A program made the translations under genes and the position numbers. From contig CAIQQH010000056.1 of the NCBI GenBank assembly GCA_903873915.1, forward strand, positions 1-64,000: a DNA stretch of 64,000 nucleotides, given 5' to 3'. This document shows, one piece after another, positions 654 through 22,501 of this stretch (position 1 is the stretch's first letter; each line of letters begins with the position of its first letter). Below the pieces are notes generated by a model, which saw only the letters and a list, made by a program, of their open reading frames with translations, was not told where the DNA came from and did not search any database. The stretch comes from an uncultured Flavobacteriia bacterium (GTDB lineage: Bacteria > Bacteroidota > Bacteroidia > Flavobacteriales_D > Crocinitomicaceae).

Positions 654-1586
654 TTGAAAACAAACGATTTTTCTACTTTATCAAACTTTGACATTATCGG
701 AGATATTCACGGATATGGCAAGGAGCTCATAAACGTATTAGAGAAAATGGGCTATTCAGAGAAAGAACCTTATAATTATGCGCATCCTGATGGACGGAAA
801 GTTATTTTTATTGGGGATTATATCGATCGAGGACCAGAAATCCTATTGACCTTGCGCATCGTTCGGACCATGCAAGAAAATGGCAATGCCATAGCGATCA
901 TGGGGAATCATGAATTCAATTTTCTATGTTATAATTATACCAACGAGAAAGGTGAGTCTTTCCGGCCTCAAGATAAAAAGACGGAAGGGGAAAGATTCAC
1001 CGATCAAGAACTTGGTGATGAAATAACCTCGTATCTAAATTGGATGGCAGAATTGCCTTTGGTTTTTGAAAATGACGTTTGCCGTTGCGTACATGCGCAT
1101 TGGGACAAAAAATCCATTGCATTGATACGTGAACGGGGAATTGCAAAGCTCGATCGAGAGGGATTATTGGCTCTATATGCCGATAACGAGTTGCTTCTTG
1201 CTTATGAAATTGTGCTGAAAGGAGACGAATTGGAAATCGACGAAGAATACCAGTTCGCTGATAAAGAAGGAAAGGTAAGAAAGCAGGGTCGAATCAAATG
1301 GTGGGCAACGGAAAAAGGCACTACGATGGGGGAATGCTTTGCATCAATTCCGCCAGAAAGTATTCATAAACCTTATATTTCTAAGGCTGAAGAATTTGTT
1401 TTGCATTACGATCATGATGAAAAACCTGTTTTCTTTGGCCATTATTGGATGTCCCATACTGAAATCAATGTGCAAAGAGACAACGTCTGCTGTATTGATT
1501 TTAGCGTTGCCAAAGAAGGACTTTTGGTCGGATATCGCTTTTCAGGTGAACAAACGCTTTTGTTGGAAAATTTAGTGCACCATTAA
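654..1586 (+). CDS. PPP-family metallophosphoesterase (Ser/Thr phosphatase-like)
   Basis: A 310-residue calcineurin-like metallophosphoesterase. The metal-binding signatures of the PPP family appear in order: GDIHG near residue 17, GDYIDRGP near 54 and GNHE near 83, with later histidines in VHAHWD and FFGHYW completing the usual ligands. Such enzymes hydrolyse phosphoprotein or dinucleotide phosphate bonds; the substrate cannot be read from sequence. The start is a TTG at 654, chosen because GDIHG sits only 16 residues in and no ATG lies between. It stands alone, about 100 bases before the next gene. Confidence 0.85.
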   Translation: MKTNDFSTLSNFDIIGDIHGYGKELINVLEKMGYSEKEPYNYAHPDGRKVIFIGDYIDRGPEILLTLRIVRTMQENGNAIAIMGNHEFNFLCYNYTNEKGESFRPQDKKTEGERFTDQELGDEITSYLNWMAELPLVFENDVCRCVHAHWDKKSIALIRERGIAKLDREGLLALYADNELLLAYEIVLKGDELEIDEEYQFADKEGKVRKQGRIKWWATEKGTTMGECFASIPPESIHKPYISKAEEFVLHYDHDEKPVFFGHYWMSHTEINVQRDNVCCIDFSVAKEGLLVGYRFSGEQTLLLENLVHH

Positions 1587-1688
1587 TAAGTTTTACACCC
1601 TTTATCTTTCCCCTGTTATCTTTCCTCTAAGCTGACGTATTAGGTATGTCGCTGTATTAAAACGGCTCTTACCCAAATACCTTAGCTT

Positions 1689-4293: not shown

Positions 4294-5154
4294 TTAACAA
4301 CCCAATTCCTCTTCTTCCTTAGACGGATGATCGATGAAATCTTGAATCAAGGATCCTTCGATGAGTAATTTTTTTAGCTCTTTCCATGGAATACACATGG
4401 ATGGCGCACCAGAGGCATAAGAACCAATTTCGTAGGCGTCATAAACGAATACCATGCCTTTGCGTGTAAAAGAGATGTTGTGTGCCAATTCGAAATCTCC
4501 ACTTCCAGGCGTAAAATCCCAAGCTTCAGCACCATTTTCGGCAATGAAGAATTTTTCAGCAATGCGCTTTAATTCTTTGCCATACCCCGCTTGAAGGATA
4601 TCACTTAAGCCGAGGGTTTTTCCAGTGTGTAGGTCAAAGTTGTACGTCTCTGTTGTGCCTCCGCCATGTGCAGCTCCATAGTAGTATTCATAATTTCCAA
4701 CGACGACCACAACAATATCGCGTGATTTTTCGACTACATCACAGCGAATTGAACGTTGATATGCCATTTCAATGTCGTTGCGTTCAACCCCTTCAGATAC
4801 CCATTGACTCAGGGATTTTTCCTTTAAGGTATTGTTCGTTACTCCTTTGATGATGGCTTGATTGATGTGGTCTGCCACAGACTGATCCTTCAATTCAACC
4901 GTCAACATGTGCAAATCCATTTCTGAACAAAAGTCGTTGACCTCAGCTTCATTATTCGTAAAGCAATATTCTTTGCGGTAATCGCGAAATCGAAGGACCA
5001 AGCCACTTTTAAATTGAGGTTCAGTGACGCTGTCATTTTCCTGAGAATTTTCAGCCGCAGATTCTTTGTGTTTTGCCGACTTTTTTTCTCCACTACCACA
5101 TGCTGACGTGAGAAATAGTGTACTAAAAAAAAGTATGAAATAGGAGAAGCGCAT
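4294..5154 (-). CDS. DUF3298/RsiV-type lipoprotein
   Basis: A 286-residue lipoprotein: the N-terminus ends in a lipobox (LTSAC) at residues 15-19, then a Ser/Lys/Glu linker. The second half carries the pattern of DUF3298, the C-terminal domain of RsiV-like proteins (GAAHGGGTTETYNFDLHTGKT, later ASGAPSMCIPWKELK), usually preceded by a DUF4163-like part, which would be residues about 50-150. It should sit on the periplasmic side of an envelope membrane. RsiV is an anti-sigma factor that binds lysozyme in Bacillus, but this protein has no cytoplasmic sigma-binding part. The ECF sigma gene upstream is separated by its own terminator, so a link is only suggestive. Confidence 0.75.
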   Translation of the reverse strand: MRFSYFILFFSTLFLTSACGSGEKKSAKHKESAAENSQENDSVTEPQFKSGLVLRFRDYRKEYCFTNNEAEVNDFCSEMDLHMLTVELKDQSVADHINQAIIKGVTNNTLKEKSLSQWVSEGVERNDIEMAYQRSIRCDVVEKSRDIVVVVVGNYEYYYGAAHGGGTTETYNFDLHTGKTLGLSDILQAGYGKELKRIAEKFFIAENGAEAWDFTPGSGDFELAHNISFTRKGMVFVYDAYEIGSYASGAPSMCIPWKELKKLLIEGSLIQDFIDHPSKEEEELGC

Positions 5155-5191
5155 TGATCTAAATTTTTGCTAAAGGTAATTCATTTAGCAC

Positions 5192-5217
5192 AAAAAAAAG
5201 AGGCCTAAGCGGCCTCT
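5192..5217 (-). terminator. intrinsic terminator overlapping the sigma factor stop codon
   Basis: On the minus strand AGAGGCC and GGCCTCT pair around a 5-base loop and are followed by eight T. The upstream arm encodes the final codons and the stop (TAG) of the sigma gene lies in the loop region, so termination is built into the end of the reading frame. Confidence 0.8.
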
Positions 5218-6069: not shown

Positions 6070-8520
6070 TTAACCCAATATATCAATCAGTTCAATGGTA
6101 TTTGATCCAATTTTAAATGAACCACCGATGCGCGTGCCTTTCAACAGTTTAGTCTCTAATTGATTTGATGTGAAGGTGATATATCCTATTTTATCCACAT
6201 CGATGCTAATCAGCATTTTTCGCCCATTGTATACTATTTCCAGTAAACTTCCTTTGGTTATTGAAGTCGGCATCTTTTTATTTTCACTGGCTTTTTTTGG
6301 TGCAACATATGCTGTGGTTGGAGGAGTAGTGTCCAATTTCAATAGAGTTGATGAATTCAAACTCGAATAGGCATTGACCAATAGCGTCTGATTGCCTTTA
6401 AAAAATTGAACATTGAAATATGCTGTTGGATCTTCATCATTTTCGCTTGTATTGACACCATTTTTTAGTGTGTCCTCTTTTAGACGATCATAGTACATGT
6501 ATTGGTCCAATGAATTGGAGCGAAAACCAGCTATGAGCCAAGCCATTTGATAATTTTTCACATGATTGGACGAAGTATGATTGAATTCACCTGGTTTCTT
6601 CTGAAAACCTTCAATAAGGGCATTGATAATAAATTTATTCTTTAGAGCGGGATAGGACATGTATGTTCTTGTTCCGAAGCCATTGTTAAAAACATAATAA
6701 ATTCGAGAAGGTGTTTTTATCAAACGAGGCACCCATCCAGCAATGTACGCACCAAGAAGTTTTTCATGATAACGCACTTCTTTCGGAACGTATCCGGGCA
6801 CGTTTAGATGCCATGGCCTTGATTCTATGGAACTAATCCAATGATTCAATAATTTTTCATCAACTACAGTACGCAGAGGTTCATATATTTTTCTGGCCCT
6901 TAAATCATGTGGCAAAGCAAAATAATACGTGGGATCTTTTTTAATCGCTTTAACCCAAGCTGTTTCTCTAATCTCATTAAAATTCTTGCTATTGCGCATT
7001 TCTTCAGGAAAAATATTGTCCGAAAAATCAGAGTCTTTGTGAGTTAAGATCAGATTGACTGCCCGTGTAATTGAAATTTTAATAGATTCATTCTGGGAAT
7101 AAGGGATATAATCAGCCAAAAGACTAGGACTAGCTCTTTCACCCGGATTTCGCGGAGTTCGTTCTAATTTCTTCGTTAATTCTTTCGGGAAATTCAATCC
7201 TAACTTGTGTAGAAAGAGTTCATGTTCTTTTATAAAATTTGGAAGTAGTTGAAATTCTTTGGCGGTGAATCTTCTTAAATCGAATATTTCTAGGGCGGCG
7301 TTCAGGGCAATTTTTTGGAATTCAAGGGTCTCCGAAGCTGAAGAATTTTTGGATAACGCGTCGTACAAGTCTGGACGCAAGGAGATAATGTTGCACACGT
7401 CTTCATAGGTGATGTTTAAATCAAGTTTATCTTTTATTTCATTCAATGAAAAGAATTCCAAATAATTAGAAATGTTTTTCAATTCAAAAGACGGTTTTTC
7501 ATTCGCAAAATTTTCAGGTAAACGATGTTGAATAAATGGCCAAAATTGCAAACGTTTTCTCCACCACTCATTTGATTTATCAAAGTCTATTTTATTCATA
7601 TTTAGTTGAAATTCTTTGGAATTCACTAAATTTAAAGACTGGGTAAAAAAGTAAATGTCCGACAACCAGTGTTCTGGATATGTATTACTTGTCCCGCGAC
7701 ATTCTACAATTGCCTTATTTATCGGATTAACGCGAAGAGCAACAACCGGTTTTCCCGCAGATCTTAGGATGTAAAAGTCGAAGGATTTGATATAATACCT
7801 TGCATGGTAGTTATCCGCAATACACCACCCAGACCCTCTTGCAGCCGATGTCAATTTTGGGACAAGTGATTTACAGCGAATCAATTGCCATCCATTATAA
7901 ATCACATCACCGGATCCAAAGGTTGACTTGATAAAGTATTCTCGCGCTAAATTTGATTTAGGTGTAATGCGGCCGTTCTTCATACGGCCATCAATCCAAT
8001 CGATAATGTCAAGCGAAGGCTCACTTAAATTTCGGCGATTTCCATATCCCGTTGATTCAAACATTGGACGCAGAATCAACAATTGAAAAGCCTCATTGTC
8101 AGGAAATTCTGTCTTGAACAATTGAGTCCATTTTTTAAATGAATTTGACTTATTCTTATTAATCAATTTGGACAAAAATATCCTGGCCTCGTGTTCCCCT
8201 TTTTCCGAATTTATTTTTTTTAACATCTCGTATTCATCTGAGTTTAACTCATGTTCATTCCCAAGAGCATGGTCTAAATTCAAATGTTTTTCTGTGATAA
8301 AAAAGTGTTTTTCTTGCCCCTTCGCCAAAGGCCATTTTGCTTTTCTAATAAGATTGGGCAAGAGCGTAGATTTGACAAACGCAACTAATGTTTCCTCATT
8401 TTTGACCACCGATTGCCAAGGGATTTCATTTTCATATTTCGCAACGATGAATTTCAAATGAACTTGTTGAATACCAAATTTTTGAACTTTCGAAGGATAC
8501 GTGAATGTATTTTCAGACAT
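6070..8520 (-). CDS. large protein with a PcfJ-like core, unknown function
   Basis: An 816-residue, probably cytoplasmic protein without signal peptide or membrane helix. Residues about 205-300 hold the most telling stretch: SGWCIADNY, then FDFYILRSAGKPVVALRV and IVECRGTSN. Order and spacing resemble the core of PcfJ-like proteins (a His/Trp-Cys pair, a strand pair ending in an R-G-x-x-N motif), which occur on mobile elements and in many Bacteroidetes with unknown role; the match is by eye and weak. The last 70 residues look like a small beta domain after a Lys/Pro-rich linker. It stands alone, upstream of the retron-like cluster and in opposite orientation. Confidence 0.6.
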   Translation of the reverse strand: MSENTFTYPSKVQKFGIQQVHLKFIVAKYENEIPWQSVVKNEETLVAFVKSTLLPNLIRKAKWPLAKGQEKHFFITEKHLNLDHALGNEHELNSDEYEMLKKINSEKGEHEARIFLSKLINKNKSNSFKKWTQLFKTEFPDNEAFQLLILRPMFESTGYGNRRNLSEPSLDIIDWIDGRMKNGRITPKSNLAREYFIKSTFGSGDVIYNGWQLIRCKSLVPKLTSAARGSGWCIADNYHARYYIKSFDFYILRSAGKPVVALRVNPINKAIVECRGTSNTYPEHWLSDIYFFTQSLNLVNSKEFQLNMNKIDFDKSNEWWRKRLQFWPFIQHRLPENFANEKPSFELKNISNYLEFFSLNEIKDKLDLNITYEDVCNIISLRPDLYDALSKNSSASETLEFQKIALNAALEIFDLRRFTAKEFQLLPNFIKEHELFLHKLGLNFPKELTKKLERTPRNPGERASPSLLADYIPYSQNESIKISITRAVNLILTHKDSDFSDNIFPEEMRNSKNFNEIRETAWVKAIKKDPTYYFALPHDLRARKIYEPLRTVVDEKLLNHWISSIESRPWHLNVPGYVPKEVRYHEKLLGAYIAGWVPRLIKTPSRIYYVFNNGFGTRTYMSYPALKNKFIINALIEGFQKKPGEFNHTSSNHVKNYQMAWLIAGFRSNSLDQYMYYDRLKEDTLKNGVNTSENDEDPTAYFNVQFFKGNQTLLVNAYSSLNSSTLLKLDTTPPTTAYVAPKKASENKKMPTSITKGSLLEIVYNGRKMLISIDVDKIGYITFTSNQLETKLLKGTRIGGSFKIGSNTIELIDILG

Positions 8521-10289: not shown

Positions 10290-11324
10290 ATGCACACATC
10301 CATTCAACATCGATTGCGAAAGATTATTGACGATCAAAATAAAGATGATCAGCACATATTGGCTGATTTAACAGCCATTGTTCGAGAAATTGAGTTGCGT
10401 GAGAGATCTTTCTTCCCAGCAAAAAAAGCCATTGATGTTTTTTCTGCGCATGTCAATGACTATGGTGTGGCGGGCGAAACCATTCAAACGGGAATTGAGG
10501 ATTTTGACGAGCGCATTCCCTTGTTTCGGGGTGAATATATAGTGATTGGCGGACGACCAGCAATGGGAAAAACCCACCTTTTAATGAACCTTGCCTTAAA
10601 TATGTCCACGAAAGTACCGGTCTTGTATTGCAGTTTTGATTTATCGGAAGGATTGCTGATGAAGCGAATGGTGGCGGCCTTGTCGGGCATTTCTCTGAAT
10701 CAATTGGTGATGGGCTCATTGAATCGTTTGGAGCTGAAATTGATTGAATCCGTCAATGCAGAGTTTCAAGAACGTAGGTTGTGGATCAGTGACCAACGCA
10801 CCAACTCCTTGCAAATTTTACGTGAACGTTGTAAAAAACATATAGAAGAGGATGGGGTTCAAGTCATTTTCATCGATTACATTCAGTTGATCAGTTCTGA
10901 CCGATATCGCCACAACCGTGAAATGGAAATGAGCTATGTAAGTCGAGAATTGAAAGCCATTGCTCGAGAATTTAATGTGTTGATTATCGCGTCAAGTCAG
11001 TTGAGTAGAATGGTCGAAACTCGCGGAGGAGATAAGCGTCCTATTCTCTCAGACTTGCGTGAAAGTGGTGCCATTGAGCAAGATGCGGACAAAGTATTTT
11101 TCCTCTATAGACCAGAATATTATGGATTTATGCAAGATGAAGATGGAAACACAACGGATGGAATTACGGAGTTGATTTTGGCCAAAAATAGAAGTGGATC
11201 ATTGGAACGCATACAATATGCCCGAGATAGCAATTATACGCGGATCATTTCCATCAACGATCATCTGGAGCGATTTTCAATACATCCAGATAGATTGGAG
11301 GAATTAGGAGAAACACCATTTTAA
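10290..11324 (+). CDS. DnaB-type (SF4) helicase without the DnaB N-terminal domain
   Basis: A 344-residue RecA-fold ATPase closely following the C-terminal domain of replicative DnaB: Walker A GGRPAMGKT at residues 87-95, Walker B Asp196 in VIFIDYIQLI, the H3-like SSQLSRMVETRGGDKRPILSDLRESGAIEQDADKV-type segment (split here as SQLSRMVETRGG and SDLRESGAIEQDAD), and the LAKNRSG loop. Only about 60 helical residues precede it, so the primase-binding N-terminal domain (about 100 residues or more in DnaB) is missing; housekeeping Bacteroidota DnaB is near 500 residues. This is therefore a specialised paralogue. Its stop lies seven bases before the retron-like RNA, and the reverse transcriptase follows, so it is the best candidate for the effector or partner. 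Confidence 0.85.
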   Translation: MHTSIQHRLRKIIDDQNKDDQHILADLTAIVREIELRERSFFPAKKAIDVFSAHVNDYGVAGETIQTGIEDFDERIPLFRGEYIVIGGRPAMGKTHLLMNLALNMSTKVPVLYCSFDLSEGLLMKRMVAALSGISLNQLVMGSLNRLELKLIESVNAEFQERRLWISDQRTNSLQILRERCKKHIEEDGVQVIFIDYIQLISSDRYRHNREMEMSYVSRELKAIAREFNVLIIASSQLSRMVETRGGDKRPILSDLRESGAIEQDADKVFFLYRPEYYGFMQDEDGNTTDGITELILAKNRSGSLERIQYARDSNYTRIISINDHLERFSIHPDRLEELGETPF

Positions 11325-11331
11325 TGCATAC

Positions 11332-11493
11332 GAGAGCCGTTGCCCAACTTATGTGTCGGAATGACCGATAAGTGGTTGTGCACCTGCAACCCAATGAAAA
11401 ATGGAGGCCATGAACTTTGATGTTTCGTCGAAGTTCCGCTGCGCTCCATTTTCGCCGAAACATCTAAATTGAAGATAAGAAGCAACGGCTCTC
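11332..11493 (+). ncRNA. retron-type msr-msd RNA (candidate)
   Basis: The 188-base spacer before the reverse transcriptase is bounded by a perfect 12-bp inverted repeat, a1 GAGAGCCGTTGC (11332-11343) and a2 GCAACGGCTCTC (11482-11493), as in retron noncoding RNAs. Inside are two msr-like hairpins (ACTTA..TAAGT with inner TCGG/CCGA, 11347-11373; GGTTG/CAACC, 11374-11391) and a long msd-like hairpin: AAAATGGAG (11398-11406) with CTCCATTTT (11444-11452), holding GAACTTTGA/TCGAAGTTC (11412-11436, one G-T pair). Six T follow a2. The branching G cannot be fixed by eye. It begins seven bases after the helicase stop and ends 19 bases before the reverse transcriptase ATG. Confidence 0.85.
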
Positions 11494-11512
11494 TTTTTTA
11501 AATTAAACGCAC

Positions 11513-12592
11513 ATGACATTGTACGATTTTGTGGAACAGCAGCGTCCGGAATTAAAGCAAACACTGCGCTTGCACACCTTGAAAATTAAAATTTTCCCAG
11601 GGGTGACAAAACACATGATTTCCGCTGGTCTCCTGCTTTCTATGGAAAATGCTCAAGACGTATGCGCCTATTTTCAGCTGCCACGCGCAGTGCTCGAGCA
11701 ATTGATCAACTCCCCCAAATACAAAAGCTTTTCTATTGCCAAAAAGCGAGGAGGTGTCAGATCGATAGAAGCGCCCGAACCTCGATTGATGAATGTTCAA
11801 CGCGCATTGAATCATGGACTTCAGTCCTTGTATATGTGCAATCCCGATCCGGCGGTTTTTGGTTTTGTCATCAACGAGGACAACAGAACCCCAGCATCGC
11901 CAATTGTACAAAACGCCATGCCACACGTGGGTAAACTGCATGTGCTCAACATCGATTTAAAAGATTTTTTTCCTTCCATTCGTGCATTCCGTGTTAAGGA
12001 ACTTTTCCTTTCTGATCGCTTCAGATTTAATGAGCAAACAGCGACAGTTTTAACCTTATTAACAACACATCAAGGGCATTTACCCCAAGGTGCGCCCACG
12101 TCGCCCATCATTACCAACTTTATTTGTGCGCAAATGGACGAGGAAATGAGAAAGATTTCATTAGAAAGGGCTTGGACCTACACCCGCTATGCGGACGATC
12201 TTACCTTCTCTGCTGATGTATCATTTCATGATGAGGCAATCGCTCAAATTCGTTCTATTGTTGAGCACAATCGATTTGTCATTAACGAAAAAAAGATCCG
12301 TCAAAAAGGTGAAGGAAAAAGGAAAGAGGTGACGGGAATTGTTGTGAATACGAAGGTAAATGTCAAACGAAATCAAATCCGTCAAGTAAGAGCTATGCTA
12401 TTTGATCTCGAACGAAATGGCAGAACAGCTGCGGCAGCGAATCATTTCAAAAATTCACCTGTTGTGCGTGAAAATGACCAAGATGTTTTTTTAAATCGTT
12501 TACGCGGATACATCTCTTTTATCGGACAGGTGCGGGGCAAGGATGATCCAATTTTTCTCCGGTTTCAGGGAAAATTGCACGAATTAATTTAG
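11513..12592 (+). CDS. ret: retron-type reverse transcriptase
   Basis: A 359-residue reverse transcriptase. Catalytic motifs are present: the first Asp in NIDLKDFFPSI (D148/D151), QGAPTSPIITN in the middle, and YADD at 226-229. Two retron hallmarks are also visible: NAxxH (NAMPH, 134-138) ahead of the palm and VTG (273-275, EVTGIVVN) after YADD. Retron enzymes copy the msd part of their own RNA into ssDNA primed from a branching G. Length and a single catalytic domain fit retrons rather than group II introns, with no maturase or endonuclease. The directly upstream structured RNA supports the call. No accessory gene follows; a repeat tract and a convergent malic enzyme gene do. Confidence 0.92.
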   Translation: MTLYDFVEQQRPELKQTLRLHTLKIKIFPGVTKHMISAGLLLSMENAQDVCAYFQLPRAVLEQLINSPKYKSFSIAKKRGGVRSIEAPEPRLMNVQRALNHGLQSLYMCNPDPAVFGFVINEDNRTPASPIVQNAMPHVGKLHVLNIDLKDFFPSIRAFRVKELFLSDRFRFNEQTATVLTLLTTHQGHLPQGAPTSPIITNFICAQMDEEMRKISLERAWTYTRYADDLTFSADVSFHDEAIAQIRSIVEHNRFVINEKKIRQKGEGKRKEVTGIVVNTKVNVKRNQIRQVRAMLFDLERNGRTAAAANHFKNSPVVRENDQDVFLNRLRGYISFIGQVRGKDDPIFLRFQGKLHELI

Positions 12593-14674: not shown

Positions 14675-15520
14675 ATGCTCAACCAACATAAAATCTTGCG
14701 CGTTTTGCAACTGATTTCATTATTAAAACAAGAGCCTGCGAAATCAATTCATCAACTCGGTGTTATAATCGATACGACAGATCGAACAGTATACCGTTAT
14801 TTTGATTTGTTGAAGGAATTGGGATTTGAATTGCAGCGCGATCAATTTAATAAGTACTCAATTCCAGCGAGCGATGGAGAAGGAGGTGTAATATTTACCA
14901 AAGAAGAATCGAGCTTGATTCGAAAAATGCTACTGAATTTTGCAAAGAACCACCCCTTGAAAGATGCTGTTTTAAAGAAAATTTACCTTTCGTCGGAAAC
15001 AACAATTGTTTCGAGTCACCTGCTCAGAGCGCATCTTGGCCGAATCGTTGAGCTATTGTGTGATGCCATTGAAACACGTCGACAAGTGGTGCTTAAGAAT
15101 TATCATTCATTGAATAGTCAGAAAATTTCAGATCGCTTTTTAGAACCCTTTGCGTTTACTGACAATTACCGCGCATTGATGGCATACGAACCAGCGTCTG
15201 GCGAAAACAAGTACTTCAACATTGAGCGAATCACGAATGTTGAGCTTTTGGAAGTGTCGTGGATGCACGAAGAAAAACATACATTGACAAAACCTGATGC
15301 TTTTGGTTTTGGCCCTACAGATACAGTTTATTCCTTGCATTTTGAAATGTCACTCAAGGCCTATTTGCTTTTAAAAGAGGAGTATCCATTGTGTGGACCA
15401 CATTTGACTAAATCTATACATTCGGATCGCTACGAATTGAAAATGGAGGTGAATAGTCGAATTCCAATCGACAGATTTGTGCTTGGTTTGAAGGATGAAA
15501 TTACCGAAATCAATGAGTAA
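14675..15520 (+). CDS. HTH-WYL transcriptional regulator
   Basis: A 281-residue regulator with an N-terminal winged helix-turn-helix (ILRVLQLISLLKQEPAKSIHQLG through TVYRYFDLLKELGF, residues about 6-55) and a WYL-type ligand-binding domain at about 150-215 (LEPFAFTDNYRALMAYEPASG, IERITNVELLEVSW). WYL proteins bind nucleic acid or nucleotide ligands and often control defence or stress genes (known for the family). ATG 14675 was preferred over an upstream TTG at 14651, since it places the helix-turn-helix right at the start. It opens an island that has a second WYL gene at 16.8 kb. Confidence 0.85.
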   Translation: MLNQHKILRVLQLISLLKQEPAKSIHQLGVIIDTTDRTVYRYFDLLKELGFELQRDQFNKYSIPASDGEGGVIFTKEESSLIRKMLLNFAKNHPLKDAVLKKIYLSSETTIVSSHLLRAHLGRIVELLCDAIETRRQVVLKNYHSLNSQKISDRFLEPFAFTDNYRALMAYEPASGENKYFNIERITNVELLEVSWMHEEKHTLTKPDAFGFGPTDTVYSLHFEMSLKAYLLLKEEYPLCGPHLTKSIHSDRYELKMEVNSRIPIDRFVLGLKDEITEINE

Positions 15521-15558
15521 ACGATTGGGCAGAACGTTTTGAATCAAAAAAAAACTTA

Positions 15559-15597
15559 AAAGTTCTGTGGCATTTTAATGGTTTACCACAGAACTTT
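15559..15597. terminator. bidirectional terminator hairpin
   Basis: AAAGTTCTGTGG (15559-15570) pairs perfectly with CCACAGAACTTT (15586-15597) around a 15-base loop, with A-rich sequence to the left and T-rich to the right. It separates the convergent WYL and UVR-motif genes. Confidence 0.85.
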
Positions 15598-15608
15598 CTT
15601 AGATTTTT

Positions 15609-16049
15609 TCAGTGACGTTCTAGGTAGTATTGAATTACACTGCGAAGTTTCAATTGCTCATTGAGTGCTATAATCAGCGGCTCCGCCAATTCTTTGTCCT
15701 GTGCGGTTAGGTGTACTTGACGCTCTTTTTTTAACTCCGAAATACGCAGTTCTGTCTGATTTAAACTTTCCCTAGCAAAACTTTGATCAACTGATTGAAA
15801 CTCGATCATTAGATTCCGTATTGCTTGTTTGATTCTGAAGTTAACTTCATTCAATGCAAGTGAATTGTCGTAATGCAGCAGTTTTGCTTGCAGGATGGCT
15901 AAGTCGTCTATGATCTTCCTTTCTTTATCCCTGATATCTGCGGCCTTCTCATACTGTTGACATTTTATGACTTCTACTTTTTCAAGCACAATTTCGGCCT
16001 TCTTTAATTTCAAGCGAAGAATGTCATAATGGATTTGATCTAGGTTCAT
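15609..16049 (-). CDS. coiled-coil protein with UVR-like motif
   Basis: A 146-residue, almost wholly helical protein. Residues 30-46 (CQQYEKAADIRDKERKI) match the UVR motif of UvrB, UvrC and McsA (Y-E-x-A-x-x-x-R-D), a helical hairpin used for protein contact. The remainder is a charged coiled coil. It is the second gene of a minus-strand pair, starting 11 bases after the stop of the beta-rich gene at 16061. A role as an adaptor is possible; no enzyme motif is seen. Confidence 0.7.
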   Translation of the reverse strand: MNLDQIHYDILRLKLKKAEIVLEKVEVIKCQQYEKAADIRDKERKIIDDLAILQAKLLHYDNSLALNEVNFRIKQAIRNLMIEFQSVDQSFARESLNQTELRISELKKERQVHLTAQDKELAEPLIIALNEQLKLRSVIQYYLERH

Positions 16050-16060
16050 GGTTGCTGAGT

Positions 16061-16540
16061 TTAATTTTCGCTAATAAAACGGATTTCTATCGGAAGGTTT
16101 TCTCGGACACTTACAGAAAAGAAGTTGAAGTCATCACGAATGTTTCCATCGCGCTCAATGACATCGATCATTGTCGTTCCTTTGGGAAGAGCAGGAAAGT
16201 AGAGGGTGTAACTGTGTGCCTGTCCTTGACATTGGAAGTGGTACTTTGTTGGTGCAATGGGAATACCTTCTGCTTTGATTAACTGTAGTTTCATGTCTGA
16301 CCCGTGCGGACGAATATAGCACGAAGGGTGCATTTGAATCCATCCTCCTTTGATGTAAAGTCTTGACGAAATGTAAAAGAATTCAATTCGTGTAAGCTCA
16401 TCATTGAGTTCAATTTCGCTGATGGCAACATCCGAATCTGGTCCTTCTTCGATCACTGGCTGTTTGATGATTTGAGGTTTTGTTTTTGGAGTGGTTGTTT
16501 TCACTTCTTCTTTTTCTGGGGTAACAGTTTTTGTGTTCAT
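16061..16540 (-). CDS. beta-rich protein, island paralogue 1
   Basis: A 159-residue protein with a Thr/Lys/Pro/Glu-rich start (residues 1-35) and a compact beta-rich domain. The pattern GGWIQMHPSCYI..., KLQLIKAEGIPIAPTKYHF, YTLYFPALPKGTTMIDVIE, FNFFSVSV matches that of the proteins at 17791 and, more weakly, 20861. In Bacteroidetes this pattern is familiar as a beta-sandwich next to secreted thioredoxin-like proteins (my recollection), but here there is no signal peptide, so the protein looks cytoplasmic. First gene of the minus-strand pair, with a shared promoter element about 115 bases upstream. Confidence 0.7.
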   Translation of the reverse strand: MNTKTVTPEKEEVKTTTPKTKPQIIKQPVIEEGPDSDVAISEIELNDELTRIEFFYISSRLYIKGGWIQMHPSCYIRPHGSDMKLQLIKAEGIPIAPTKYHFQCQGQAHSYTLYFPALPKGTTMIDVIERDGNIRDDFNFFSVSVRENLPIEIRFISEN

Positions 16541-16655
16541 GTATGTGTTGGTTTATGGTTACAACTTAATTTTCTATCCGTATCGTTTCAAGTAACGGTG
16601 TTCTTCCGAAGGCATAACATCCGAGACGAATAATTGTGACAAAGAAACAACATCA

Positions 16656-16665
16656 CTCGGTATTC
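16656..16665 (-). promoter_or_regulatory. shared island promoter element, copy C
   Basis: On the minus strand AATACCGAGT is followed after 11 bases by TTTG, the layout found before the DUF932 gene. It lies in the divergent region between the beta-rich paralogue 1 and the second WYL gene and points to the former. Confidence 0.5.
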
Positions 16666-16732
16666 TATGTAATGAGTAAAATTAAAATCGATTAACTGCC
16701 TATAAATAAGTTGTTAACAATTACGCATCTTA

Positions 16733-16742
16733 TATACCGAAT
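16733..16742 (+). promoter_or_regulatory. shared island promoter element, copy A
   Basis: TATACCGAAT, identical over ten bases with copy B at 18334. A TAGTTTTG box (16758-16765), a match to the Bacteroidetes -7 consensus, follows at 15 bases, about 48 bases before the second WYL gene. The element could be a WYL operator or a -35 element for the sigma factor of the island. Confidence 0.55.
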
Positions 16743-16813
16743 AAACTTTTTTTGTTTTAGTTTTGTGCTTCAACAGCAGATTTGTTGAGAGATGAACATT
16801 TAATACGTGCCCT

Positions 16814-17794
16814 ATGCCAGTAACAAAAAATCCTTACCTCAGGTACAAAGCCATCGATTCTCGGCTTCGAAATCGGCAAAAGCCATTGCCTACACTTATA
16901 GACCTGATTCAGGCCTGTGAGAAAGAAACAGATTATGAGCCCGCATTAGACACGGTCGTGAAGGATATAAAAAACATGCGTATTTCCTTCAATGCGCCGA
17001 TCGAATTTAACCGGTCCAAGATGGCGTATGAATATACAGATGACACTTATCGTTTTGATGGTGTGGGATTAATGGAGCAAGACATCAACAGCATTAAAAA
17101 TGCCATTGAGTTGATTCAAAGTATTGGAAGTTCACGTGTAAGCGGTCAATTTGAACATGCCATGGAAAAAGTACTGACTGCTTACCGTGAAAAATTCCCC
17201 CAAGGAAATTTTAAACGTCAATTCATTCAAACTGATGCGGCCAAGGATTTTCGTGGATTCCAGCATTTTGACTTATTCTTTCGGGCCATCAAAGATCGAA
17301 TCCCGGTATCCATTGTTCATTATTCATACAGCAAACATAAATTTACTTCCCGCATTATACATCCGATGTTACTCAAGGAATTTGACAATCGATGGTACAT
17401 CGTCGCTTTTTCGGAAGAACACAATGAAATACGAACCTTTGGATTTGACCGAATCCATGATCCCGTATTTGTGCAAGGAGATTTTCGCGGTGAACTAGGG
17501 CCAGATGCAGTGTCTTACTTCCAGAATATATATGGAATTTATCCAATTGAAAATCAAGACATACAGAATATTTTGATCGACATATCGCCTCAAGAATTGG
17601 CTTATTTTAGATCCTACCCCATTCATGAAAGTCAACAATTTGTCATGGTCCATAATAGTGGTCGTGCACGCATAAAATTGAATCTCATTCCGTCCTTTGA
17701 ACTCGTTCGATTGTTGCGATCTTTCGGAAAAACGATTCGAATTGTTGAACCAGAATGGTTGAGACATGAAGTCAACGAAAATTTTAAACGATGA
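16814..17794 (+). CDS. WYL-domain transcriptional regulator
   Basis: A 326-residue regulator: an N-terminal helix-turn-helix-like part (residues about 8-50, RYKAIDSRLRNRQKPLPTLIDLI), a middle domain and a WYL domain at about 150-225 (HPMLLKEFDNRWYIVAFSEEHN, FGFDRI), then a C-terminal WCX-like part (about 240-326). WYL repressors such as BrxR/CapW control phage-defence loci, which makes this a plausible local regulator. Its stop overlaps the start of the next gene by four bases (ATGA), so both are one operon. The shared TATACCGAAT element lies 72 bases upstream of its ATG. Confidence 0.87.
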   Translation: MPVTKNPYLRYKAIDSRLRNRQKPLPTLIDLIQACEKETDYEPALDTVVKDIKNMRISFNAPIEFNRSKMAYEYTDDTYRFDGVGLMEQDINSIKNAIELIQSIGSSRVSGQFEHAMEKVLTAYREKFPQGNFKRQFIQTDAAKDFRGFQHFDLFFRAIKDRIPVSIVHYSYSKHKFTSRIIHPMLLKEFDNRWYIVAFSEEHNEIRTFGFDRIHDPVFVQGDFRGELGPDAVSYFQNIYGIYPIENQDIQNILIDISPQELAYFRSYPIHESQQFVMVHNSGRARIKLNLIPSFELVRLLRSFGKTIRIVEPEWLRHEVNENFKR

Positions 17795-18252
17795 AAAAAA
17801 CAACGAAATCATACCTGTTCCCCAATGTTCCGAATGAGGGAATATCTGATAATCCAACATTGTTAAGGATTACGATTGCTCCTGCGCATACAAAAGTAGA
17901 TTTTGGATATTCCACCTTTAACAGTGTTTATTCAAATGGTGGGTGGATTCAAATTTCACCGGAAACGTATATGCAAGCAATGAACGGAACGCGAAAATAT
18001 AAACTGCTAAATGCAGAGGGAATATCTTTTTCGCCGAATAAACATTATTTTGAATCGCTCCGTGATTGGCAGTTTTATTCCCTGTATTTCGAAGCAATTC
18101 CAGCTGAAGATGGAATTTATGAAATCATAGAACCAGAATTTATGGGAGATAAGGAGGAAATAATGGCTGCTCGTCAAGTTTCTGGAGAGAATTTCGACTT
18201 TTTTCACATTCAGCTTGAGATACAAAAAGCGATTCAAATTAAGGAGAATTGA
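17791..18252 (+). CDS. beta-rich protein, island paralogue 2
   Basis: A 153-residue protein, no signal peptide, translationally coupled to the WYL gene by a four-base overlap. The order SNGGWIQISPETYM, KYKLLNAEGISFSPNKHYF, FYSLYFEAIP, YEIIEPE, FDFFHIQLEI follows that of paralogue 1 closely. The function is unknown; the coupling suggests it is made in fixed ratio with the regulator and may bind it or its ligand. Confidence 0.72.
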   Translation: MKKTTKSYLFPNVPNEGISDNPTLLRITIAPAHTKVDFGYSTFNSVYSNGGWIQISPETYMQAMNGTRKYKLLNAEGISFSPNKHYFESLRDWQFYSLYFEAIPAEDGIYEIIEPEFMGDKEEIMAARQVSGENFDFFHIQLEIQKAIQIKEN

Positions 18253-18333
18253 TTCCGATTTTGATTTTTTCAAACTTTTTTAGAGCGCAGTATGACAAAA
18301 GAAAAGTAAATTAATTTTTAACTACGTATCAAG

Positions 18334-18343
18334 TATACCGAAT
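18334..18343 (+). promoter_or_regulatory. shared island promoter element, copy B
   Basis: TATACCGAAT, then TTTATTTG at 18351-18358, 40 bases before the DUF932 gene. Copies B and C share TACCGA..TGA and a TTTG at the same distance. Confidence 0.55.
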
Positions 18344-18382
18344 GACATATTTTATTTGTAGAACATTAAAATATGTTTAGTT

Positions 18383-19225
18383 ATGAAAGAATCATTAAAA
18401 ATGGAAATCGATTGGGATGTCAATCGAGAAGAGTTGTTAACCGTGCGTGGGGAGAAATCCAATCGCTTTGCTTTAACCCGGTCTGACAATAGAGAAATCC
18501 TAAGTGTGTGTTCAGGAATATATGAGCCATTTTACAACAGGGACTTGATGAACTTGGTCGAGCGGATTGAGAAACTGTCAGATTTTAAGAGTATCGGCTT
18601 TGAACAATTTCAGAAAGGGAAGCGCATATTGGCTTTTTTGAAGGATAGTTCACCAGCATCTTTAGTTAATCAACGCGCTGATCATTATTTAATCATTGGG
18701 AATTCGCATGATCAGTCATCTAAAATTTTCTTAGGGCTTTCAAACTACATTTTTCGTTGTGAAAATCAATTTTCCCGCGAGTTATATCACTTGAGAATAA
18801 AGCATACGCACCGATTGGATATGTCAGACGAAGATATCTATGACGTGCTTAAGAAATATGAGCAGGGAAAGAGGGAGCAAATTTATTTATCAAAGGAGTT
18901 ATCGAATCGATCAATAGGGAAGGATGACGTACATGTATTCCTTCAGTTCATGTTTCCTGAACCTCAGGTCAAAGAACAAATGTCTATACAGGAGAATGAA
19001 GCACTTCGTCGTTCGAGGAATCGCCGTCGAGAAATGATGGAGTCCATTCAATTGGAAATGAAAGATCTCGGCCAAAATGCGTGGGGCTTATTGAATGGTG
19101 TTACGTTTTATACCTCTCACCGTATAAGAGGAAATTCTGGCTTTGGCAATACCAATGGGACCGCACAACAATTGAATGCCCGTGCGTGGGAATATTGTCA
19201 AGGATTGTTAATTGAACGAAAATAA
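18383..19225 (+). CDS. DUF932 family protein
   Basis: A 280-residue protein with the pattern of DUF932, common on phages, plasmids and islands: VNQRADHYLIIGNSHDQS, a central FRCENQFSRE (where C-x-N usually stands), and near the C-terminus NAWGLLNGVTFYTSH, the conserved asparagine-rich helix. The function of the family is unsettled. A gene alone in its transcript by spacing: 130 bases after paralogue 2, with its own shared promoter element, and 365 bases before the sigma gene. Confidence 0.75.
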   Translation: MKESLKMEIDWDVNREELLTVRGEKSNRFALTRSDNREILSVCSGIYEPFYNRDLMNLVERIEKLSDFKSIGFEQFQKGKRILAFLKDSSPASLVNQRADHYLIIGNSHDQSSKIFLGLSNYIFRCENQFSRELYHLRIKHTHRLDMSDEDIYDVLKKYEQGKREQIYLSKELSNRSIGKDDVHVFLQFMFPEPQVKEQMSIQENEALRRSRNRRREMMESIQLEMKDLGQNAWGLLNGVTFYTSHRIRGNSGFGNTNGTAQQLNARAWEYCQGLLIERK

Positions 19226-19590
19226 AAGGATGATTACAGCGTGAATATGAAAATAAAATATGCATTAAACAATTAAAAATCAGTTAATTAGATATTTCAT
19301 CAAAAATAATTGAAAAAAAATTGTTACTTATTTGATCTTCATGCGTTAACAGCACGGCGTGTAAAATCCCAACCCCCTTTATTATAGAATTTCAGCTTGT
19401 CTCTCTCCGGAGCGATAAGGCTTAGATGTGTCCTTCCCTGGTTTCAGTAATGGATGATGTCAATTGGTGTATGCAATATACTATGCGATGTGATTATGAC
19501 CTGAAATTAGGGAAATCGACACGCGATGATAGAACACCTTATATATGGGGGGTGAATGTTAAAACTGCAAACAACTAAAACAACTGGTAT
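19226..19590. other. intergenic region before the island sigma factor
   Basis: 365 bases with no convincing reading frame. An 8-base inverted repeat (AATTTCAG near 19388, CTGAAATT near 19500) is widely spaced. It may hold a long 5' untranslated leader for the sigma gene; nothing certain is seen. Confidence 0.4.
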
Positions 19591-20121
19591 ATGGAAAGAA
19601 GAGTGATGGAAACGATGGAGCAAGCGGTGTTGAACAACGAAGGAATGGTGCGTAAAGCAGCAAAGAAATACCTTGCTAGAGGATATGAGTGTTGGTTGGA
19701 CGATGTTGTGCAGGATATTTTAATAAAAGCTTGGACGCGAATTGGTCAATATGATGAAAATGTTGGCAGCTTAGGGTCTTGGATGTATACTATGACGCGC
19801 AACCATTGTTATGATTTAATGGAGCGCAAAGGAAACTCTTTGTCGATTCGCGTTGGCTCGGATGATTTGATCAACCTTGCGGTGTCACCGTCTTTTTCAG
19901 ATGAATACGGGGTGGATAGCAAAACTTTACGCAAGGCCTTGGAGCGTGCAGGTGAACGCGACCGAATTGTGCTCACCTTGAAATACTATTTCGGTTATAG
20001 CGGTAAAGAAATTGCAGTTCTTATGGACATTCCCGAAAAGAATATTGGAATGACTGTGATGCGTGCAAAAGACCGTGTTAAGAGAATTCTTGTCGGGTGG
20101 GGCTATGGCACTGGTTTTTAG
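19591..20121 (+). CDS. ECF-type RNA polymerase sigma factor of the island
   Basis: A 176-residue sigma-70 family protein with region 2 at about 15-85 (WLDDVVQDILIKAWTRIGQYDENVGSLGSWMYTMTRN-like, seen as DVVQDILIKAW and SWMYTMTRNHCYDLM) and region 4 at about 115-165 (ERDRIVLTLKYYFGYSGKEIAVLM). It differs from the two other ECF factors in the window. No anti-sigma gene is adjacent. The DIP1984-family gene follows 58 bases on and may be in the same transcript. It is a natural candidate to read the shared element at the three island promoters. Confidence 0.9.
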   Translation: MERRVMETMEQAVLNNEGMVRKAAKKYLARGYECWLDDVVQDILIKAWTRIGQYDENVGSLGSWMYTMTRNHCYDLMERKGNSLSIRVGSDDLINLAVSPSFSDEYGVDSKTLRKALERAGERDRIVLTLKYYFGYSGKEIAVLMDIPEKNIGMTVMRAKDRVKRILVGWGYGTGF

Positions 20122-20179
20122 TGCTTAACCAAACGATTGCCAGATTTAATGCTTTAGTAAATTTTAAAAACAAATAGAT

Positions 20180-20608
20180 ATGACGATTGCGCAAGCGCTT
20201 AAAGAAAAAAACAAGAAAGTAGCAAACCTACACGTTCTTTGGGACCGGTTGAATAAAAACAATTCGGTGCTTGAAGGAAACAGACGGTCGTATGACCCCC
20301 TTGAACTCATGACCCTTATTGAGACCGAACTCGACGCATTGGTCGACTTGAAAACGCGAATTCACAATGCTTCAGCACCTGTTCGAAGTCAAATTTTCAG
20401 AATGTCAGAGCTGAAAAATAAAGCACTTAAAATGAAATACCTGAACACGTCTGAGGGACCTGTGCAAGATAAATACGAAGGTACAGTTACTCGTCGTGAC
20501 GCTGTGTTTCCAGCAGAACAAGTGGACAAGCGCGTAGAGGCTGCGCAAGAAGAAATAGAAGCGATTCAAGATGTCTTGGATAAATTCAACTTCTCAACAC
20601 ACATATAA
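20180..20608 (+). CDS. DIP1984-family helical protein
   Basis: A 142-residue helical protein following the DIP1984 (septicolysin-like) pattern: RLNKNNSVLEGNRRSYDPLELMTLIETELDAL-type N-terminal half (key parts RLNKNNSVLEG and DPLEL), a central helix of ILARDxL-like kind, here FRMSELKNKALKMKYL, and an acidic C-terminal helix. The role of the family is unknown. It follows the sigma gene on the same strand. Confidence 0.65.
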   Translation: MTIAQALKEKNKKVANLHVLWDRLNKNNSVLEGNRRSYDPLELMTLIETELDALVDLKTRIHNASAPVRSQIFRMSELKNKALKMKYLNTSEGPVQDKYEGTVTRRDAVFPAEQVDKRVEAAQEEIEAIQDVLDKFNFSTHI

Positions 20609-20846
20609 GCCCACCTTTTTAAGAAGTCGTTTACGGAAAGAGTAGCATAAAGTCAGGTGCAATCTATTCTATTTATAAAGATCTCAGATGATGCAAAGCG
20701 ATCTAGTATCAAAGGTCAAAATTCAAGAGGTCAAGAATCATAAAGCACAAATTCAAGACTCATTTATCTGAATTATGTTGCCTTGAAGTAAGCGGCTTCT
20801 CCTTAAAAACTAATTATAGTTAAGTACAAAATTTATTTTTGTTTTC

Positions 20847-20852
20847 AGGAGG
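20847..20852 (+). promoter_or_regulatory. strong Shine-Dalgarno sequence AGGAGG
   Basis: AGGAGG eight bases before the ATG at 20861 is a full anti-16S match, rare in this window, and decides that start. A TATTTTTG box (20834-20841) of the TAnnTTTG type lies just upstream, so leader and ribosome site are very short. Confidence 0.6.
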
Positions 20853-20860
20853 TAAAATCA

Positions 20861-21292
20861 ATGTTTCGATGTATTTTGCATAAAATACAGATCATGAGTT
20901 TCCGAATGTCAGATACAGATACACTTGTTGCAAAACCCAAAATTAAGGTTAAGAATTCGGTAAAACCTAAAATTGAAGAAGAACGCCAAGTTATTGTTCA
21001 TTGCTCCATTCCCTGCGAATTCGGTATGGGTGTGCGCATCTGGAAAACAACCTTTCTGATCACCGATGATGGTCAAAAAATTCAGTTGGTTCATTGGGCG
21101 AATATAAGTCTAGCTCCTCAATGGACAAGAATCTTCCAAAATGGAGTTTATAACTTTACGCTCGTTTTTAAAGGCTTACCAAAAGGCTGTAAACTTTTTT
21201 CACTGAAAGAGGAAATCCCCGAACCAGGAGGATTTGTTGTGTTGGATATCCCAAGGAATAAAACAGATGTGTATCGCGTAACCATATCATAA
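20861..21292 (+). CDS. beta-rich protein, island paralogue 3 (diverged)
   Basis: A 143-residue protein. The segment KIQLVHWANISLAPQWTRIF, then YNFTLVFKGLPKGCKLFSLKEE, aligns with the AEGI..P.K and LYF..LP motifs of paralogues 1 and 2, but the GGWI motif is lost. A Lys/Pro/Thr/Glu-rich N-terminus recalls paralogue 1. The start at 20861 is supported by AGGAGG; a later ATG at 20906 would give a start like that of paralogue 1. Function unknown; probably cytoplasmic. Confidence 0.6.
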   Translation: MFRCILHKIQIMSFRMSDTDTLVAKPKIKVKNSVKPKIEEERQVIVHCSIPCEFGMGVRIWKTTFLITDDGQKIQLVHWANISLAPQWTRIFQNGVYNFTLVFKGLPKGCKLFSLKEEIPEPGGFVVLDIPRNKTDVYRVTIS

Positions 21293-21427
21293 GCCCTCCA
21301 TTTTGCTGCACTACGTCTATCCAGTTGGACAGTAAATGGCCTGTCAATTTTAGAGGTGTTGACAACTTTTCTTCGAGTAAATTGGATTGCAGCGTATCTT
21401 TGAAAACATCTGCAACAGCGCCACCAA

Positions 21428-21721
21428 ATGACTCCCAAACAAGAAGAGAAAATCACGGAATTAATTCGAAAATACAATGATATTTTATTGATTTCTATGC
21501 GTTTGGCTGTGGCTGAGGATTTTGTTAATTTGTTAATTTTGAATCGGGATGATCAAGAATTTGAGTTGAATGATCTGCTGGAGAACAAGGAGGCATTGAC
21601 CAATCACATCATGAAACAATTTCTTAAGTTTAATAGTTCCCCCATATTGGAAGAGTTGAGAAATAAACCCACCTCAACGCCTAAAATGCGTAAGAAACCC
21701 ACAATCAGAAAAAAGAGTTAA
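21428..21721 (+). CDS. small helical protein, unknown
   Basis: A 97-residue reading frame with two amphipathic helices (about 5-30 and 45-75) and a Lys/Pro/Thr-rich basic tail. Composition and ATG start are protein-like, but no family is recognised. Its stop overlaps the stop of the convergent lipoprotein gene by four bases. Confidence 0.5.
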   Translation: MTPKQEEKITELIRKYNDILLISMRLAVAEDFVNLLILNRDDQEFELNDLLENKEALTNHIMKQFLKFNSSPILEELRNKPTSTPKMRKKPTIRKKS

Positions 21722-22104
21722 TCACAGGTCATCCCATCAGTGAAATGCACCTTTGTAATGGTGATTCTCACTTTCGTTGCATCATCTACCCAGTTATTTT
21801 CTAGATCTTTTGTTGTAGAATTAGGTTTTATTGGTGAAATAAAATTCCCCGAACTCCAAGATCCTTCGCGTACACCTTTTTGATCATTGAAATTATCATA
21901 GAAAGTAGCTTTCCATCTTAAGGCATCTACCGTGCGGCTCGAATTGTTCTTAAATTCAACATAGTACCCAATGTTCTTCCCGAGCACATTTTGCGTATAT
22001 GCTTTTGATACACTTATGTTGCACATGCCCTTGTGAGTAGGTTCTGTGGCGCTGCACAAGATTAATAAGCAGAAGATACTTGTGATTGTTATGATACTTT
22101 TCAT
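21718..22104 (-). CDS. small secreted protein, unknown
   Basis: A 128-residue protein with a signal peptide (ITITSIFCLLILCSA) and a beta-rich body whose pattern YYVEFKNNSSRTVDALRWKATFYDNFN resembles FxLYD or similar extracytoplasmic beta-sandwich modules. LILC could be a weak lipobox. It lies 16 bases after a broken small gene on the same strand, so the two were likely one transcript. Confidence 0.6.
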   Translation of the reverse strand: MKSIITITSIFCLLILCSATEPTHKGMCNISVSKAYTQNVLGKNIGYYVEFKNNSSRTVDALRWKATFYDNFNDQKGVREGSWSSGNFISPIKPNSTTKDLENNWVDDATKVRITITKVHFTDGMTCD

Positions 22105-22120
22105 AGTCAGTGGTAATAAT

Positions 22121-22369
22121 TTATTCCTCGTCTAACGTTTTTATAAACTTTGGGTACAAATTTACATATACCCATTGATAAACGCGACATGTTTTTAGGA
22201 TTGTAATCCATTCTGTTTCTTCGTCATACACGTTTTCTTCTTCAGATTCAAAAATCACTTTGTCGGCAATCCCGCCCGGATCATTCGGAAAAATCAATCG
22301 CTCCGTTCAGGAATCTCGGATGCAATGAGCGCAAATCAAAATGCTAAATACTTCCATTCTTAATTTCAT
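22121..22369 (-). pseudogene. 82-codon reading frame broken by one in-frame TGA
   Basis: From an ATG at 22369 the frame reads MKLRMEVFSILICAHCIRDS, then TGA (22309-22307), then continues for 61 codons (TERLIFPNDPGGIADKVIF... WITILKTCRVYQWVYVNLYPKF) to TAA at 22121. The second half is protein-like in composition and directly precedes a real gene. Most likely a recent nonsense mutation; a TTG restart at 22297 could still make 58 residues. A sequencing error is the alternative. No family recognised. Confidence 0.5.
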
Positions 22370-22415: not shown

Positions 22416-22490
22416 GGGTAATTAGCTCAGTTGGTTTAGAGTACTGCCTTGACAGGGCAGGGGTCACAGGTTCGAATCCTGTATTACCCA
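22416..22490 (+). tRNA. tRNA-Val (anticodon GAC)
   Basis: A full cloverleaf: acceptor GGGTAAT/ATTACCC plus A, D-arm GCTC...GAGT, anticodon arm CTGCC-TTGACAG-GGCAG giving GAC, and T-arm CAGG-TTCGAAT-CCTG. CCA is not encoded. It stands at the right end of the island, a common integration site, though I see no copy of its 3' end nearby. Confidence 0.93.
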
Positions 22491-22501
22491 CATTTTTAAA
22501 A

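Follow-up and report, generated by a model that had tools for sequence, protein, structure and literature searches.

A recurrent WYL-regulator module with a predicted operator and fixed promoter geometry in Flavobacteriales and their relatives

Introduction

The closest described relatives of the system considered here are transcriptional regulators with a WYL domain. In the portion of a preprint consulted, DriD is reported to bind, and to be driven by, single-stranded DNA, and its sites overlap the -35 region at a constant distance from the -10 element (PMC12340889). PafBC is likewise described, in the sections available of its report, as triggered by single-stranded DNA; it adapts sigma by inserting between promoter DNA and sigma domain 4 (PMC11804915). 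Excerpts of a further study present SiwR as a mycobacterial, single-stranded-DNA-binding WYL activator that responds to genotoxic stress (PMC10693628), and BrxR is documented, in the partial text used here, as a repressor that binds an 11-bp inverted repeat with a 5-bp spacer upstream of its gene and another upstream of brxA (PMC9122601). Here, we analysed a stretch of 64,000 nucleotides (the window; GCA_903873915.1, contig CAIQQH010000056.1, positions 1 to 64,000) that forms part of one contig in the draft genome of an uncultured Flavobacteriia bacterium (2.8 Mb, 137 contigs, 87.5% complete). It carries a block of nine small genes around a WYL regulator, WYL2, and two related beta-rich proteins, betaA and betaB. 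A reading made from the sequence alone had suggested that the block may be one inducible system. We find that it is a patchwork, not one system, and that its core is a recurring regulon defined by a common site.

Results and discussion

A divergent module recurs with a common operator-like palindrome

The core of the block consists of the following features; scores of the boxes refer to the position weight matrix (PWM) described below.

15609-16049, minus strand: UVR-like coiled-coil protein, encoded behind betaA as the second gene of its arm (sub-threshold Pfam UVR match, 0.0056)
16061-16540, minus strand: betaA, of no known family, predicted to be an Ig-like beta-sandwich
16640-16643, minus strand: TTTG in the betaA promoter; its end lies 15 nt past box 1
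16655-16677: WYL box 1, operator-like palindrome before betaA (PWM 15.2, matrix built without box 1)
16720-16742: WYL box 2, weaker, before WYL2 (PWM 13.4)
16814-17794, plus strand: WYL2, WYL-WCX transcriptional regulator (Pfam WYL 1.1e-13, 51.4 bits; WCX 2.5e-7)
17791-18252, plus strand: betaB, betaA paralogue, ATGA overlap with WYL2
18321-18343: WYL box 3, 39 nt before DUF932 (PWM 15.5), with TTTG at 18355-18358
18383-19225, plus strand: DUF932 protein (Pfam PF06067 5e-13, 49.8 bits against a gathering score of 23)

Together they form a five-gene unit in which the UVR-like gene and betaA, on one strand, diverge from WYL2, betaB and DUF932. Relatives of betaB occur in 10 of 150 genomes of the order (own genome counted), and in eight of these ten a second beta gene lies across the WYL gene on the opposite strand. 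A set of 35 loci, comprising those in named genomes found with an alignment of betaA relatives, derives almost entirely from metagenome-assembled genomes labelled Flavobacteriales or relatives. By automatic gene calling, betaB-WYL2 diverges from a whole betaA in 26 of the 35; these include locus L114, where a gene is inserted in the divergent gap. L128 has the same layout with a broken betaA frame, and L129 carries all module genes in one direction. In L127, a WYL regulator is present too, at the same place (genome G038), masked in the automatic call by overlapping open reading frames (ORFs). G038 itself holds two very similar module copies on different contigs (L119, L127).

The partner genes recur less evenly. 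A UVR-like relative lies near betaA in 18 of the 35 loci, as detected with a hidden Markov model of six sequences, the window protein included. In L098 and L116 the UVR-like segment is part of a protein with a weak, below-cut-off AAA match, L099 being similar, and in L061 the betaA domain is fused to UVR. DUF932 relatives lie close to the module in three cases, namely the window, L112 (the L053 locus, genome G079) and L064.

The gap between WYL2 and betaA carries the palindrome ACTCCGTAT-N5-ATACGGAGT, with 9-bp arms and a 5-bp spacer. Using a PWM built from 17 such gaps, with the window left out, sites scoring at least 13 were found upstream of betaA in 31 of the 35 loci, 17 of which are training loci. 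At a score of at least 15, the 466 kb scanned yielded 33 matches, a number that includes the 17 training sites; order-1 Markov sequence yielded none, and six column-permuted matrices yielded 0-2. Sites outside the training set comprise the three window boxes and those before DUF932 in L053, AAA-UVR in L098 and L099, the fusion in L061, a lone betaA in L062 and a macro-domain gene in L146. Other matches scoring at least 11 fall inside reading frames, in stretches chosen through a looser pattern match; in L104, L109 and L121, box matches lie in gaps where no module gene starts at the customary distance. Fourteen stretches preceding other WYL genes from the order were scored as well, and none reached 13 (best 8.3). 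This distribution suggests that WYL2 is most likely a site-specific regulator that would bind ACTCCGTAT-N5-ATACGGAGT.

Promoter geometry and proposed mechanism

The position of the box was compared across 31 promoters of betaA, DUF932, AAA-UVR, fusion and macro-domain genes, near-duplicate loci left out. The tetranucleotide TTTG ends exactly 15 nt after the box in 27 of them, against 0.28 expected from shuffled spacers, and in 26 of 30 when the macro-domain gene is omitted; the window promoters of betaA and DUF932 both obey this rule. In L120, L123 and L061, TTTG ends at +35, approximately two helical turns (20 nt) further. We take TTTG, by resemblance, to be the end of the Bacteroidota -7 element, whose consensus we assume to be TAnnTTTG. 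For the wyl gene itself, 17 promoters were compared: the best -7-like match ends at 19-21 nt in 16 loci and at 23 nt in L128, with scores of only 4-6 out of 6, and four loci have an equally good match nearer the box. In front of the partner genes, these spacings put the box over the -33 region at a fixed phase; before wyl2 it lies differently. Exact spacing, together with a class displaced by 20 nt, is what an activator facing RNA polymerase needs, and the fixed phase points to an activator that would touch RNA polymerase.

The WY and R.FG.DR motifs of the WYL domain are invariant in 23 module regulators, which is in keeping with a nucleic-acid ligand, the ligand residues being assigned by analogy; 'TiqKD..M' is conserved where a recognition helix would be. 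The module, its site, the position of the site and the genes behind it are read directly from the sequence. From these we propose that WYL2 would control a small regulon comprising betaA-UVR, WYL2-betaB, DUF932 and an unlinked macro-domain protein. At betaA-type promoters it would occupy the -33 region, at a fixed 15-nt distance from where the -7 element ends, and activate by standing in for the missing -33 contact. The likely trigger would be a single-stranded nucleic acid that the WYL domain binds when DNA is damaged or a phage attacks, and betaA and betaB would act as paired adaptor-like proteins working with UVR-like coiled coils and variable effectors. Binding and activation by WYL2, its trigger and the roles of betaA, betaB, UVR and DUF932 are inferred, and we assign this reading as a whole a probability of about 0.58.

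Several observations weigh against it. The window boxes are weak (13-15.5 versus a training median of 24.3). There is no PWM match before betaA in L107, L112, L117 and L129; L117 is cut by its contig, and the L112 promoter (G079) has a two-mismatch match to a composite pattern of box plus spaced TTTG. L064, one of the three DUF932 loci, lacks a box (no match of at least 11), the L126 promoter lacks TTTG, and WYL2 has no Pfam helix-turn-helix match at E 1. Some of the loci are related to one another (L095-L097; L120-L123 with L125), so the counts are not independent. When the composite pattern was scanned in 10 genomes (seven of them scanned twice), it was no commoner, among the matches listed at up to two or three mismatches, than its reversed control; single composite matches consequently mean little. 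Finally, a repressor overlapping the -33 region could also sit at a constant position.

This last point bears on a reading that we consider a real but minority possibility, namely that WYL2 is a BrxR-like repressor that blocks the -33 region of its own and its target promoters and releases them on binding a ligand. The 9-bp arms and 5-bp spacer before both wyl2 and its partners recall the BrxR arrangement, as outlined in the available part of that report (PMC9122601); the exact 15-nt spacing and the +35 class, on general grounds, fit an activator better, and the wyl arm has another, looser spacing (19-21, once 23). We favour activation by WYL2, keeping both readings.

Candidate targets beyond the module

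Outside the module, nearly all composite matches are attributable to chance. Among non-module matches with up to two mismatches whose surroundings were examined, two have the right geometry before a gene start, and the others lie inside longer reading frames or without a nearby start codon. The first is a macro-domain gene of the window's own genome, unlinked to the module (G000:C79, L146; Pfam Macro 7.2e-15), which was initially encountered by its box alone, shows the same geometry and has one mismatch in the composite scan. It is encoded at 4623-5210 (minus strand) of L146, approximately 2.4 kb from an ADP-ribosylglycohydrolase gene at 1469-2272 (plus strand), and is a likely member of the predicted regulon. 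The second, with two mismatches and a PWM score of 10.2, precedes a gene of G070 named from its sequence as recA, where the promoter (L230, G070:C4:116945-116979) carries a CGTA-N7-TACG palindrome with TTTG 15 nt further. We regard it as a lead, either a WYL target or a chance match. A macro-domain protein and RecA would fit a damage response.

Genomic neighbourhood and possible links to defence

At E 0.01, betaA, betaB, UVR and DUF932 match no PADLOC 2.0.0 model; in a scan of the block without betaC, only the two WYL proteins matched, as regulators, WYL2 also weakly matching Cas3c through its WYL part. An AbiE toxin-antitoxin pair is inserted in the WYL2-betaA gap of L107 (1131-2769) and a PLD-family gene in that of L114 (8935-9852). 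Other neighbours include nucleotidyltransferase/HepT, HipA, RES, SIR2, GmrSD and ResIII-PLD helicase genes, and retron-like reverse transcriptases occur in the vicinity of the module in L099, in L102 and in the window itself. In a rough control, 172 PADLOC families were matched at 1e-10 among 139 neighbour proteins compared with 24 among 124 control proteins, which is to be read as a tendency and not a rate because the families overlap heavily, two reverse transcriptases accounting for most of the 25 families shown. The neighbour proteins (at least 120 aa) came from 27 chosen loci of the 35, the window left out, three of which gave none; the controls came from 18 stretches of seven module-bearing genomes, one giving no proteins and one only two, owing to limited space. 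For roughly the first twenty examples, the proteins had been selected by eye ahead of the scan. As a rough tendency, then, defence and toxin-antitoxin genes surround the module more often than they surround control stretches.

These data also bear on an explanation to which we give somewhat less than even odds: that the module, as a regulon for stress or housekeeping, has nothing to do with phage and only happens to lie in variable regions where defence genes collect. It is favoured by the box before the macro-domain gene and, weakly, before recA in G070, by the five loci (L120-L123 and L125) that share one chromosomal neighbourhood, and by a pattern-based scan of viral contigs that returned no betaA relative. 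The excess of PADLOC families around the module, the AbiE and PLD genes inserted in its divergent gap and the retron-like genes near three modules speak against it. A phage origin of the module itself was set aside in view of the same viral-contig scan.

At 10290-12592 of the window, a DnaB_C-type ATPase (Pfam 1.3e-71) is followed by the retron-like reverse transcriptase (PADLOC retron XI, I-C best). A similar pair is found close to the module in L099 and, in L102, immediately next to betaB; it possibly represents a retron with a DnaB-like partner. L099 additionally encodes an RtcR-like sigma54 activator (6560-7987; Pfam RtcR 3.4e-6) between the retron-like genes and the module.

Structure and possible roles of the partner proteins

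betaA had no family match in the library scans run. Its AlphaFold model, of fair confidence (pLDDT 83), is an Ig-like sandwich with no Foldseek match at 0.001 (best 1lmi, 0.027). Structural matches were middling only, with lipoproteins, NEAT and adaptin-ear domains: VIA Z was 9.0 to 3fbq (rmsd 5.7, 114 aligned), 8.1 to 4r4g (rmsd 3.4, 106 aligned) and 6.7 to 1lmi (rmsd 3.3, 99 aligned). On these matches, assignment to the MPT63/DUF4352-type Ig-like sandwich is tentative, and the adaptor role suggested for betaA is a guess. As judged by eye from their sequences, long Bacteroidota proteins of thioredoxin-like and OmpA-like character, apparently secreted, likewise carry a betaA-like domain as their N-terminal part (L068, L069, L072, L077, L087, L088, L090, L092 and L093).

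For DUF932, a model computed from six sequences reached a pLDDT of only 51 and was not used to propose a mechanism. Genes of 360 aa beside betaA/betaB in L110, L113, L118 and L129, which were among the rows of that model, were considered as DUF932 relatives and left out of the counts as unconfirmed; the L113 gene has no Pfam match at 0.01, and comparison of the 360-aa genes with the DUF932 profile gave E 0.13.

The combination of a constant core with variable third genes would agree with a toxin-antitoxin-like set, in which betaA and betaB hold an effector (DUF932, AAA-UVR or caspase) inactive. Caspase-like genes near the module in L113 (Pfam 1.6e-17) and L064 (by similarity) would fit as well; many loci, however, have no effector beyond the UVR-like protein, and we consider it improbable.

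The remaining genes of the block

Four further protein genes and a tRNA complete the picture in the window.

14675-15520, plus strand: WYL1 (Pfam WYL 0.011, below cut-off; PADLOC WYL model 2e-12), no box; neighbour
19591-20121, plus strand: sigma-70 family factor (Pfam sigma-70 region 2, 1.9e-13); neighbour
20180-20608, plus strand: DIP1984-like protein (NCBIfam 5.5e-7, below its cut-off); neighbour
20861-21292, plus strand: betaC, distant beta paralogue; neighbour
22416-22491: tRNA-Val

All nine ORFs proposed by the sequence-only reading were found at or near their positions, and the coupling of WYL2 and betaB by ATGA was borne out in the ORF coordinates. Its family names held well above cut-off for DUF932, WYL2 and sigma, whereas UVR, WYL1 and DIP1984 fell below theirs. 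It had also seen one beta pattern in three genes: betaA and betaB are clear paralogues (E 6.6e-14), and betaC is only distantly related, matching betaA in BLASTP at 5e-6 over 46 aa and betaB not at all. A betaA/B profile built without betaC still detects it at E 7.2e-5, and by reading of the sequences, betaC relatives appear to be a separate set of short Bacteroidota proteins.

The idea that the whole block is a single inducible system led by the local sigma factor now seems very improbable. The one point in its favour is physical adjacency. No PWM match of at least 11 precedes WYL1, sigma, DIP1984 or betaC, and none of the four recurs beside the module in the 35 loci: the single strong WYL1 relative (E 9e-98) lies approximately 7 kb from the module (L127, 722-1570), the only sigma relative, a weak one at E 9e-6, lies over 7 kb from it (L113), and DIP1984 has no relative in the set. 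Moreover, betaC and DIP1984, present in 11 and 2, respectively, of 150 genomes from the order (own genome in both counts), spread independently of the module, on other contigs than the module where both are seen. The proposed unit therefore stands for WYL2, betaA, betaB, the UVR-like protein and DUF932, through their recurrent neighbourhood and common operator-like site, and not for the other four genes. The co-occurrence expected for WYL, DUF932 and DIP1984 was half borne out: DUF932 accompanies WYL in the window and at two further loci, DIP1984 in none. As far as the evidence goes, sigma, DIP1984, betaC and WYL1 look like neighbours, apparently unrelated to the module; WYL1 could be a looser companion of it, given the one case in L127.

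Nor does the block end cleanly at tRNA-Val, as had been suggested, three further ORFs of 58-128 aa lying between betaC and the tRNA. The last 12-20 nt of tRNA-Val have no exact copy elsewhere in the window, so there is no sign of an attachment site, and the tRNA was set aside as an integration site on this ground. Stretches upstream of ppk in four relatives contain other genes and no tRNA, and no malic enzyme was found in the four at E 1e-50; an empty site could consequently not be read. A 97-aa ORF (21428-21721) adjoins betaC and has a 54% identical relative approximately 5 kb from betaC in a same-genus genome (L183). The two may represent a neighbourhood that predates the remainder of the block.

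Implications and comparison with known systems

If the predicted site and geometry are borne out, a Bacteroidota WYL regulator gains an operator and a promoter rule from which its direct targets become predictable, and the placement of DUF932, UVR-like coiled coils and a beta-sandwich pair in one predicted regulon provides a handle on their role. If the trigger is single-stranded DNA, the system would be a LexA-independent damage or phage alarm. Extending this, it is conceivable, though doubtful at present, that some Flavobacteriales possess a second, LexA-independent alarm circuit, in which a WYL activator reading single-stranded nucleic acid, with its own operator and fixed promoter geometry, would switch on paired beta-sandwich adaptors, UVR-like and DnaA-like ATPase proteins, DUF932 and dispersed genes (the macro-domain gene; recA in one genome), linking damage or phage attack to exchangeable effectors.

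Among the papers listed by literature searches, none showed a description of the module or the box. The nearest parallel is the DriD regulon of Caulobacter, which, according to the sections consulted, also has a palindrome at the -35 region and several target promoters, as well as a site before its own gene, which DriD does not activate; here, too, a site lies before wyl2 (PMC12340889). The hallmark of such activators, a site that falls on -35 and keeps its distance to -10 constant, is seen here in 27 of 31 promoters at +15, the -7 elements being assigned by resemblance. The sites themselves differ (ATACGAC-N7-GTCGTAT for DriD versus ACTCCGTAT-N5-ATACGGAGT), as do the targets, and the part of the preprint used describes no beta partner (PMC12340889). 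The mycobacterial PafBC and SiwR are likewise WYL activators, responding to genotoxic stress, with targets and sites other than those found here in the excerpts of their reports (PMC11804915, PMC10693628).

BrxR shares with WYL2 an inverted repeat with a 5-bp spacer before regulator and partner gene, and defence neighbourhoods, as far as the text consulted extends (PMC9122601); it is a repressor, however, and betaA, betaB, UVR and DUF932 match no PADLOC model. Bacteroidetes LexA-like SOS regulators also use palindromic sites before damage genes. In the available portion of that study they belong to the S24 family, not to WYL, and their three motifs (GGA-N5-TCC, CTAA-N5-TTAG and TTAC-N5-GTAA) differ, when compared by eye, from the box core CGTA-N7-TACG (PMC8565304). 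Collectively, these comparisons place the module within a known kind, the WYL-controlled regulon; what is new is its own operator, together with previously undescribed beta-sandwich and UVR-like partners.

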